From NCBI RefSeq assembly GCF_000193375.1, contig NC_015315.1, positions 1,806,622 to 1,870,621 of the forward strand: a stretch of 64,000 nt of DNA, written 5' to 3'. Position numbers and translations under genes: made by a program. Under the pieces are notes generated by a model. The model did not search any database and had not been told where the DNA came from. It saw nothing but the letters and a program-made list of their open reading frames with translations. Of this stretch, positions 2,586 through 37,084 are shown piece after piece. Every line of letters starts with the position of its first letter. The first letter of the stretch is position 1. The stretch is from Thermoproteus uzoniensis 768-20 (GTDB taxonomy: Archaea > Thermoproteota > Thermoprotei > Thermoproteales > Thermoproteaceae).

Positions 2586-2873
2586 ATGATATCGGTGACG
2601 CAGATACTGGCCTTGGTCGTGCCGTTTATATTCGGACTGCTCATAGGAGTCCTGATAAGGCGCCTCATCGGCGTGGCCTTGGTGTTGCTGGCCATATTGC
2701 TGTTGGCGGTGGCGGTGGGCTACATCTCGCCGTCGACGGCAATGGGCATTATCCAAAGCTTGGGCTACACGGCGTATCAAGCGGCCGAGAAGCTCGGCGT
2801 GTTGAAGGCGATGATTCCCTACTCATCCCTGACCTTCATAATAGGCCTCGTGATAGGGCTCTTGATCAAGTAA
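2586..2873 (+). CDS. Small membrane protein of unknown function
   Basis: The protein has 95 residues and three strongly hydrophobic stretches (residues about 7-25, 27-50 and 78-94) separated by a short amphipathic segment. There is no recognisable motif or catalytic residue. The sequence ctttttaaac about 25 bases before the ATG looks like its TATA box. The 3' end overlaps the convergent MFS gene by 8 bases. Function unknown. Confidence 0.65.
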   Translation: MISVTQILALVVPFIFGLLIGVLIRRLIGVALVLLAILLLAVAVGYISPSTAMGIIQSLGYTAYQAAEKLGVLKAMIPYSSLTFIIGLVIGLLIK

Positions 2874-4026
2874 GGCCTCTGAACTCCTTGGTTTTGCCGA
2901 AGAGAGCGAAGAAAGCCGCCGACATGGCGGCGACGGCTGGGGCTAGGACGAGCCACATGGCGCCGTATCCCCAGAGCTCTGCCGATGCGCCTAGGGCGGG
3001 CGGTATAGCCGTGCCCAATATCACCAGGTAGGAGGAGAAGAGGGAGTTCACGGCGTTTCTCTCCTCCAACGACGTAGTCCTGACTATCATTATCGTCGAC
3101 AGCGTGAAGACGCTTCCGTGCGGCACTCCGAGGATAGCCATGGCGGCCGCCAGCAAGAGGTAGTTCTTGGAGGCGTAGAAGACGGCTAGGCCCAACAAGG
3201 TGAGCGCCACGGACACGGCGAATGCCTTATTCACGTCTCTGACAGGTCTGAGGAACATATAGAGGCGCGTGAGCATAGACACGGCGAAGAAGGGCAGGAA
3301 GAGCGAGTAGGCAACTGCCTTGGCGAGGCCCAGCTCCTCGGAGGCGTATATGGGCAGATAGGTCACGAAGGCGATGAAGGGGACGTTGTACGACGTAATG
3401 GCGAGAGCCGCCGAGATGAAGCCTTTGCTGAATAACGCCGATCTGTAGGTGGCGCGGAGGTCGGCCGACCTAGCGCCCACTATGGGGATCCTCGGCGATA
3501 GGGCGGCCAGAAGGATCGCAAGCGGGAGGAAAAAGAGGAACACATCTCTGTAGCTGTACCTGGTCAGTATCGCCGTCTCGTAGGCCGGGCCTATTACGAG
3601 GCTTGTGCTGAGCGAGAGGGAGTATGCCGCCAGTAGCCTCTCGGCGTACTCCGGCCTCACGGACGCCAAGTTTATCAAGTTGGGCATAACTACGCCGAAG
3701 GACAGACCGGATAGGAACGAGGCGATCCAGAGCTCCGCAACCCCCGACAGCCAGAAAATCGCCAGCACGAGGGGAATCGCGAACGCGGCGGCGACTACGG
3801 CTTTTTTCCTCGGCGACGGGCCCAGCGCCACGTTTATCACCGAGCTGCCGATAAGCTGGCCGACGGCGCCGACCGCCGCCAAGGCGCCTATCAGGGACGG
3901 CGTGAGGCCCAGCTCGCGCGCCAGAGGCGGCACCGTGCTCTGCACCATGTAGTTGACAGACCTCGTAGCTATGGTCAGCAGGGCTATCAGCACGACCAAG
4001 CTTACGACGTCTCTTTCCAGGCGCAC
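2866..4026 (-). CDS. MFS family transporter
   Basis: The 386-residue protein has about twelve transmembrane segments with a long middle loop, typical of the major facilitator superfamily. The region SPSLIGALAAVGAVGQLIG near residue 40 resembles drug/sugar-type MFS carriers. Substrate unknown. It starts with GTG, and ctttttatag lies about 22 bases upstream, so it probably has its own promoter. It is a single-gene unit between the small membrane protein and the RNase P RNA. Confidence 0.85.
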   Translation of the reverse strand: MRLERDVVSLVVLIALLTIATRSVNYMVQSTVPPLARELGLTPSLIGALAAVGAVGQLIGSSVINVALGPSPRKKAVVAAAFAIPLVLAIFWLSGVAELWIASFLSGLSFGVVMPNLINLASVRPEYAERLLAAYSLSLSTSLVIGPAYETAILTRYSYRDVFLFFLPLAILLAALSPRIPIVGARSADLRATYRSALFSKGFISAALAITSYNVPFIAFVTYLPIYASEELGLAKAVAYSLFLPFFAVSMLTRLYMFLRPVRDVNKAFAVSVALTLLGLAVFYASKNYLLLAAAMAILGVPHGSVFTLSTIMIVRTTSLEERNAVNSLFSSYLVILGTAIPPALGASAELWGYGAMWLVLAPAVAAMSAAFFALFGKTKEFRGLT

Positions 4027-4144: not shown

Positions 4145-4357
4145 TAGGGGGCGCCGCATACCCCCGCTTCTGTTCGGTATCGATCTAACCCCCTACCCGG
4201 GCCTCGCCGCGGCCTCACAGGCCCTGCTTGGGGGCCGCGCCCCCAGCTGGTTTTTACCCCCGCCTTTCGGCGGCCTGCCGGGAGCCTCCGCGGGCGGTGC
4301 GGGAGGTTCCAGAGGGCGGCCGTCTCCGAGCCGCCCCCGTCCCCTCGGCGCCCCCAC
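4145..4357 (-). ncRNA. rnpB: RNase P RNA, minimal type T (Thermoproteaceae form)
   Basis: Seen on the minus strand: a perfect 10-bp terminal helix P1 (GGGGGCGCCG at 4355-4346 with CGGCGCCCCC at 4156-4147). A P3-like hairpin (GGGCGGC/GCCGCCC) follows, then GGAACCTCCC resembling conserved region I. Further on are a GAAA-capped hairpin (CCGCC/GGCGG), a 7-bp TGGGGGC/GCCCCCA hairpin, and near the 3' end AGATCGATACC then GAACAGAA. The last two match the universal CR-V and 'ACAGAA' blocks of RNase P RNA. Only about 210 bases separate the two P1 strands, too little for a specificity domain. This agrees with the shortened type T RNA known from Thermoproteaceae. A TATA-like element lies about 20 bases upstream. 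Confidence 0.85.
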
Positions 4358-4373
4358 TGTATGTCTGTACTCC

Positions 4374-4384
4374 CAATAAAAAGG
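4374..4384 (-). promoter_or_regulatory. TATA box of the RNase P RNA gene
   Basis: On the minus strand the sequence reads CCTTTTTATTG, ending 17-20 bases before the first base of P1. It is the only A/T-rich block in an otherwise G/C-rich stretch. Confidence 0.5.
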
Positions 4385-4780: not shown

Positions 4781-6343
4781 GTGAGAGCTCCCGAGGCGGT
4801 CGGCAAGGTCTACCTGCTCACTTTCGAGTACGCGGGTCTGGTGAAGGTTGGAGGGCTGGGCGAGGCCGTGAGGCAGTACGCCGTGGCTCTGGCCAGGCGG
4901 GGCCTCGACGTGACGGTCCTCATGCCGTCGCACGGGAGACATCTGGATCCCAACAGGGGATTTCCCCTATCGCCTCTGGACTTCCGCGCGTGCGGCGACA
5001 GGCGGGGCCTCGACGGGAGGCTGTACCCCTACTGCCTCGGGGCGGAGAAGACCGAGGTCGACGGGGTTAAGGTCGTCATGTTCAAGGGGCTGGACACGGC
5101 CACGGGCCTCGTCTTCGATAGATGGTACCCCTACGAAAACGTCGAGGAGAAGGCCGCCCTCTTCGCGAGGGCCGTCGTGGCCTACGCCGAGAGGTACGGG
5201 TTGCCCGATCTAATCCACGCCAACGACTGGCATTCCGGCCTCGCGGGTGTGGCGTTGAGGGACTACGCCGAGAGGAGAGGGCTCGCCGTGCCTCTGGTCT
5301 ACACGATACATCTATCGTCGGGGTACTCCTTCCCGTGGCACTACGCGTCGGCCGATTGGGCAGGTCTGCCCGACAGGCCCCATCTGGTCTGGAGGGTCTG
5401 TTGTCACAGGCGGGAGCTCTACTCGTCTGTGTGGGACTCAGTGGGCGGCTCCGCCGAGGGGTTCGCAGTTGTTGAGAGCGACGTGGTCTCCAGCGTCAGC
5501 TGGGGATACCTCAACGAGGCGCTTTCGAAATACGGCGACTGGCTTAGAGGCAAGTCGTGCGTCCTCTACAACTCCACCGATTGGAGGATAGAGGAGGCCG
5601 AATCACACTTCCGCAAGCTGGCTCCCGACGGCTCTCCCTGGAGCTTAGTGGAGCGGGTGGAGAGTATGGGGGGAGAGGGCTCCCTAGACAGAGGAGGCGC
5701 CCTCTTCCTGGCGGTGGGGCGCGCCACGAGCCAGAAGGGGCTGGATCTCGCCGTGAGGGCGCTCGACTTCGCCCTGTCCGCGCGCCTCTTGGTGTTGGCG
5801 ATACCGGTGGGCGACTTCGGGTACGAGGAGTACCTACGCCGCCTCGTCCGCGAGAGGCCGGGGAGGGCCTTCCTGTCCTTCGCCAAGATCCCCAAGGATC
5901 TCTACATGGCGCTCAACTACGCGGCGACGGCGCTGGTTATGCCGTCCCGCTGGGAGCCCTTCGGCATATCTGCCATAGAGGCCATGGCGGTGGGGACGCC
6001 GGTCATAGCGTCGGCGGTCGGCGGGTTGCCGGAGGTCGTCGTCGACTTCCGGGGCGGCGACGGCGTGGGGTTGCTCGTGCCGCCCGAGGACGTCGCGGCG
6101 TTAGGGGCGGCCATGGAGTCTCTCGCTAACTGGATATGGTCGTTTAAGCCCGGCTCTATCCCGGACGGACGGCTTAGGGAGATCGCCTCAGCGAGGGGCC
6201 CAGAGTATGTAAAAGACTTGAAGCGCTACATATCGCGGTACGTCGACGAGAAGTTCAGAGAGAAAAATCTCTACGATCAGCTAAGACATTGTTACGAAAA
6301 GGCGAGGCAGATGGCCTTCTTCAAGGCGATAACGCCGGCTTAA
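4781..6343 (+). CDS. glgA: Glycogen/starch synthase (GT5)
   Basis: The 520-residue protein transfers glucose from ADP- or UDP-glucose to the growing end of glycogen. It has the N-terminal KVGGLGEAV (family KxGGL motif binding the nucleotide sugar), HANDWHSG near residue 148, and the GT-B C-terminal motif SRWEPFGISAIEAMAVG with the catalytic Glu. Length matches archaeal GT5 enzymes. It is followed at once by a sugar-phosphate nucleotidyltransferase that could supply its donor. The start is a GTG just after a TATA box. Confidence 0.93.
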   Translation: MRAPEAVGKVYLLTFEYAGLVKVGGLGEAVRQYAVALARRGLDVTVLMPSHGRHLDPNRGFPLSPLDFRACGDRRGLDGRLYPYCLGAEKTEVDGVKVVMFKGLDTATGLVFDRWYPYENVEEKAALFARAVVAYAERYGLPDLIHANDWHSGLAGVALRDYAERRGLAVPLVYTIHLSSGYSFPWHYASADWAGLPDRPHLVWRVCCHRRELYSSVWDSVGGSAEGFAVVESDVVSSVSWGYLNEALSKYGDWLRGKSCVLYNSTDWRIEEAESHFRKLAPDGSPWSLVERVESMGGEGSLDRGGALFLAVGRATSQKGLDLAVRALDFALSARLLVLAIPVGDFGYEEYLRRLVRERPGRAFLSFAKIPKDLYMALNYAATALVMPSRWEPFGISAIEAMAVGTPVIASAVGGLPEVVVDFRGGDGVGLLVPPEDVAALGAAMESLANWIWSFKPGSIPDGRLREIASARGPEYVKDLKRYISRYVDEKFREKNLYDQLRHCYEKARQMAFFKAITPA

Positions 6344-36968: not shown

Positions 36969-37084
36969 TCGGCCCGCCGGGATTCGAACCCGGGACCGCC
37001 CGTTACAGGTCCTGGGGGCTTTCTGGAGGTGTACCCCCAGGGGCTGTCTACAGCCGGGCGCTCTCACCGCTGAGCTACGGGCCG
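36969..37084 (-). tRNA. tRNA-Tyr (GTA) with a 43-base intron
   Basis: On the minus strand the ends CGGCCCG and CGGGCCG pair, with A73 at 36969. The C1-G72 pair is typical of archaeal tRNA-Tyr. The D stem is GCTC/GAGC, the anticodon loop CTGTAGA, and the T arm CCGGG-TTCGAAT-CCCGG. The total of 116 bases minus 73 for a mature tRNA leaves 43 for the intron, probably at 37/38. The intron holds a perfect 8-bp stem CCTGGGGG/CCCCCAGG. CCA is not encoded. The stem base pair 31-39 would be G-A in my reading, so the exact splice sites are uncertain. Confidence 0.88.

Follow-up and report, generated by a model that had tools for sequence, protein, structure and literature searches.

A short stretch of the Thermoproteus uzoniensis 768-20 genome, lying between two protein genes, raises the question of whether it encodes an RNase P RNA and, if so, of which type. 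It was analysed within a window of 64,000 nt (the whole stretch of DNA considered here, to which positions refer unless genome coordinates are given) of this genome (G000; 1,936,063 bp). A sequence-only reading had proposed that the minus strand encodes an RNase P RNA of type T lacking the S-domain, with ends at 4357 and 4145.

Identity of the locus

The check suggested by that reading, an Infernal search of the minus strand with a type T covariance model, gave a decisive match. Using cmscan with Rfam 15, RF02357 (RNaseP-T) was found at 4354-4148 on the minus strand with 207.5 bits (E 9.4e-47; gathering score 60), and the match covers model positions 1-208 of 208. The proposed RNA and its location are thereby borne out, with each proposed end lying 2 nt too far out. 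We regard it as practically certain that the locus is the Thermoproteus rnpB gene and that its product, an RNase P RNA of type T about 207 nt long, is a ribozyme in which only the catalytic domain is left. The gene lies at genome coordinates 1810769-1810975 (minus strand); its neighbours are an MFS transporter gene (2866-4026, minus) on one side and, on the other, a starch/glycogen-synthase-like glycosyltransferase gene (4781-6343, plus). It is the single match to RF02357 in the whole genome. The type A model RF00373 (RNaseP_arch) had no match at E 0.001 anywhere in G000, while the controls of that search (M. jannaschii, H. volcanii, S. acidocaldarius and M. acetivorans) were positive. The features of the locus, all on the minus strand and in the direction of transcription, are the following.

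4375-4382, minus: TATA-like box TTTTTATT, about 24 nt upstream of P1 (from the sequence)
4148-4354, minus: rnpB, type T RNase P RNA, catalytic domain only (full-length RF02357 match; G000:C1:1810769-1810975, minus)
4346-4355, minus: P1 helix, 5' arm GGGGGCGCCG (from the sequence; helix 1, double changes in 7 of 9 pairs)
4312-4338, minus: P3 hairpin (Rfam structure; double changes in 3 of 10 pairs)
4299-4305, minus: CR-I part of the P4 pseudoknot, 5' strand CUCCCGC (7 bp with 4167-4161)
4235-4297, minus: stem replacing the S-domain, a long helix and two small hairpins (Rfam structure)
4191-4232, minus: P15-like stem-loop of the catalytic domain (Rfam structure)
4176-4186, minus: AGATCGATACC, CR-IV-like joining segment and P2 3' strand (sequence and alignment)
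4167-4173, minus: ACAGAAG, CR-V core (from the sequence; kept in nearly all relatives)
4161-4167, minus: CR-V part of the P4 pseudoknot, 3' strand GCGGGGG (7 bp with 4305-4299)
4147-4156, minus: P1 helix, 3' arm CGGCGCCCCC (from the sequence; helix 1, double changes in 7 of 9 pairs)

An A+T-rich box is similarly placed upstream of rnpB in most relatives. The TATA-like box of rnpB was not picked up by the tRNA promoter motif of this genome, and a sigma-70 promoter scan gave nothing, as expected for an archaeon.

The rnpB gene of T. uzoniensis is already known, with a model in Rfam and a copy in a published table. The P finder table (PMC7191817) lists Thermoproteus uzoniensis 768-20, NC_015315.1, 1810769-1810975, minus, as T-type, and these coordinates are identical to those found here; its rows for several Pyrobaculum species and for Caldivirga also fall in the same places as ours or a few bases off. 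The remark of the sequence-only reading that such RNAs are commonly missed by annotation therefore does not imply novelty. Type T goes back to the work of Lai et al. 2010 (PNAS 107:22493), who, as cited in PMC7191817, gave Pyrobaculum, Thermoproteus, Caldivirga and Vulcanisaeta as hosts. It is defined by the loss of the S-domain, that is, of P11, J11/12, J12/11 with CR-II and CR-III, and P12 (PMC7191817).

Structure of the RNA

The catalytic-domain core is complete at this locus, with P1, P2, P3, the P4 pseudoknot, CR-I and CR-V all present. The 10-bp P1 helix of the sequence-only reading was recovered: GGGGGCGCCG (4355-4346) pairs with CGGCGCCCCC (4156-4147) on the minus strand, closing 209 nt, and the tenth pair is G4355-C4147. 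Both 3' motifs pointed out earlier, AGATCGATACC at 4186-4176 and GAACAGAA, are in the sequence. The region labels need one correction: AGAUCGAU falls under CR-IV, and ACAGAAG (4173-4167) is part of CR-V. CR-I, CR-IV and CR-V, together with P4, make up the metal site that cuts pre-tRNA at +1. The P4 pseudoknot is absent from the Rfam structure, yet it forms (98.5% of cells paired), and it is nearly invariant among relatives, as expected of the active site; one pair has switched from G-C to C-G.

Covariation was assessed in an alignment of 19 relatives in the RNA strand, the pairs being those of the Rfam structure plus the P4 pseudoknot (60 in all). Standard pairs occupy 89.7% of the cells of these 19 sequences, and double-sided changes occur in 21 of the 60 pairs, compared with 6.8 +/- 1.7 in shuffles and 5-8 in slid controls. 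In the window's own RNA, 50 of the 53 Rfam pairs are standard. Besides those in P1, double changes occur in 6 of 9 pairs of helix 7, the long stem standing in the S-domain's place, whose two hairpins lie at 4273-4260, with a GAAA-type loop, and at 4259-4249. The P15-like stem (helices 10-11) is paired in about 90% of cells and shows little covariation; two of its three innermost Rfam pairs (helix 12), as mapped, never formed in relatives and were ignored, and one P2 pair is missing from the mapping owing to a gap.

Regarding the S-domain, the RNA has no unmatched insert relative to RF02357, and the CR-II (ACAGAAAC) and CR-III (TGA[AG]ACG) strings are absent from T. uzoniensis rnpB. Both strings are present in the 317-nt RNA of a sister-family genome (G037).

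Distribution and protein partners

RF02357 scored above its cut-off in 43 of the 81 genomes of the window's class. These comprise all 19 genomes of its family and 24 of the 25 of a second family of the order (43 of 44), the sole miss being a genome that is 67% complete. The third family of the order is represented by a single genome, G037, which encodes a full-length RNase P RNA (317 nt, 112 bits). Two equal-scoring full-length matches are present there (G037:C3:108724-109040 and 182389-182705), in an assembly with a listed contamination of 5%. Weak 133-nt matches to RF02357 in G065 and G072 (E 4e-4 to 9e-4) were not confirmed in the locus scan at E 0.01 and were set aside. An exact-pattern scan of the named genomes returned five Thermoproteaceae contigs, one Streptomyces contig and one Acidobacteria contig; the Streptomyces and Acidobacteria hits were put down to chance similarity of G+C-rich DNA.

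The protein RPP21 (Pfam PF04032) was undetected in all 44 genomes of the two T-type families and was found in G037 and G008. A two-sequence RPP21 profile built from G037 and G008 had no hit in G000, and in its family none below E 0.02. T. uzoniensis is thus, like the other genomes of the two T-type families, a host without detectable RPP21. Its absence from Thermoproteaceae was already known (PMC4919917), and the protein could have diverged past detection, as POP5 and RPP30 have for Pfam. In G037 and G008 the Pfam RPP29 match spans the full domain; most T-type genomes give a shortened match, and the window's genus gives none at E 0.001. Using a profile of shortened RPP29s, we detected a short RPP29 in G000 at genome coordinates 1719253-1719474 (E 7e-21), directly downstream of the L29 gene.

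The Pfam profiles for POP5 and RPP30 likewise had no match in G000 or its family. With profiles from the second family, RPP30 was found in G000 at 481563-481892 (E 1e-3) and POP5 at 481999-482220 (E 3e-6). Each match is weak alone, and the assignment, which we consider good, rests partly on gene order: the two genes adjoin each other and follow L15e and a third gene, an arrangement shared with relatives. The RNase P set recovered in G000 thus consists of the type T RNA (RPR-T), POP5, RPP30 and a short RPP29. Across the order, the S-domain, RPP21 and full-length RPP29 disappear together, and the sister-family genome G037 keeps all three.

Several other explanations of the locus were weighed against these data. 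That a structured non-coding RNA or a G+C-rich intergenic stem resembles RNase P RNA by chance would draw on the high G+C content of the rnpB stretch (0.76), the large bias correction of 33.1 bits in its RF02357 match and a folding energy that is moderately unusual only (z -2.3) and would not have been convincing alone. Set against 207.5 bits, the covariation and conservation through two families, such a coincidence is virtually out of the question. A canonical type A RNA, with the S-domain present as an insert or as a separate piece, has nothing in its favour beyond the common catalytic-domain motifs. It is contradicted within the gene by the match to model positions 1-208 without a long insert and by the absence of the CR-II and CR-III strings, and RPP21 was not found either; we judge it extremely improbable.

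The remaining explanation, slightly less remote and still very improbable, is that the locus is a decayed rnpB remnant or a partial duplicate and that the working RNase P RNA lies elsewhere in the genome. A precedent exists in the relative G065, which has a broken second copy (L040:2069-2248). The T. uzoniensis RNA, however, matches the full model, has 50 of its 53 Rfam pairs standard and consists of helices that covary, and the genome holds one match only to RF02357 and none to RF00373. A type T rnpB gene is the reading that we retain.

The broken copy of G065, a genome of a neighbouring genus that includes named Pyrobaculum records, lies at G065:C1:567368-567547, besides the genome's own rnpB. 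Its last 109 nt (3') have 96% identity to the window's rnpB and 88% to the rnpB of G065 itself. The DNA on its flanks shares 94% identity with the MFS gene of the window (1281 bp) and with a portion of the window's glycosyltransferase gene (613 bp). Judging from these identities, the segment was evidently acquired from a Thermoproteus-like donor and then decayed.

Substrates, proposed mechanism and known systems

Archaeal TATA boxes usually lie about 26 nt before the transcription start. Taking the tRNA loci from G000 (L092-L121), we found the motif AGCTTTAAAA (BRE and TATA-like) in 26 tRNA genes. Counted from the mature 5' end, its centre has a median position of -26, with quartiles of -26.75 and -26, and lies at -26 +/- 1 in most tRNA genes, all for this genome alone. 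Given the usual TATA spacing, this position points to very short leaders, and most tRNA leaders in T. uzoniensis are probably 0-3 nt long, that is, nearly leaderless, as predicted from the promoters.

One tRNA gene of the window (36969-37084, minus) was missed by ARAGORN and found by Rfam (52.9 bits). Its loop suggests Thr (TGT) as the probable identity, and the anticodon is followed by an intron of about 45 nt; the TATA-like box of this gene has its centre at about -33, farther away than in most tRNA genes here. Two further tRNA matches, L118 and L119 (G000:C1:1871597-1871658 and 1797019-1797080), lie about 74 kb apart on opposite strands, flanking the window on either side, and have identical 60-base upstream stretches. 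The two could represent the arms of a large inverted repeat. Their shared stretch itself resembles tRNA sequence, however, so the matches may sit at the wrong place within the gene.

A tentative proposal, which we hold to be possible and somewhat doubtful, is that few real RNase P cleavages are left in the genus: transcription would start at or near +1, only some tRNAs, such as that at 36969-37084, would need leader removal, and the S-domain and RPP21 would have been lost through relaxed substrate demand.

For the cleavages themselves, the RNA would act through CR-I, CR-IV, CR-V and the P4 pseudoknot, a putative metal-binding active site at which the phosphodiester bond before nucleotide +1 of the pre-tRNA would be hydrolysed. 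The S-domain that would hold the tRNA elbow is gone, its protein RPP21 appears to be gone too, and the most likely partners of the rnpB RNA are POP5-RPP30 and the shortened RPP29. POP5-RPP30 attach, in other archaea, to the catalytic domain and make cleavage faster, and RPP21-RPP29 attach to the S-domain and increase the affinity for the substrate (PMC4919917); the joint loss of the S-domain and RPP21 fits this division. Type T RNAs reportedly stay catalytically active in relatives (PMC7191817), from which we infer pre-tRNA cleavage by the T. uzoniensis RNA; the make-up of its holoenzyme given above is likewise an inference.

These data confirm a real ribozyme gene, of a sort that protein-gene annotation would miss. 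They add little biologically, type T having been known since 2010 and the T. uzoniensis copy already tabulated. The small additions are the order-wide joint loss of the S-domain, RPP21 and full-length RPP29, the detection in G000 of POP5, RPP30 and RPP29, for none of which Pfam gives a match at its cut-offs, and the tRNA promoter spacing suggesting very short leaders.

Among known systems, the closest is RNaseP-T (RF02357), with the same helices, size and S-domain loss and no difference of substance. The type A RNA (RNaseP_arch, RF00373) has the catalytic domain in common with T. uzoniensis rnpB (P1, P2, P3, P4, CR-I, CR-IV and CR-V), whereas the latter is without P11/P12 with CR-II and CR-III. 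The RNase P RNA of the nanoarchaeon Nst1 (PMC4919917) is likewise a reduced archaeal RNase P RNA; in Nst1, POP5 was not found and RPP21 is kept, whereas in T. uzoniensis it is RPP21 that was not found.
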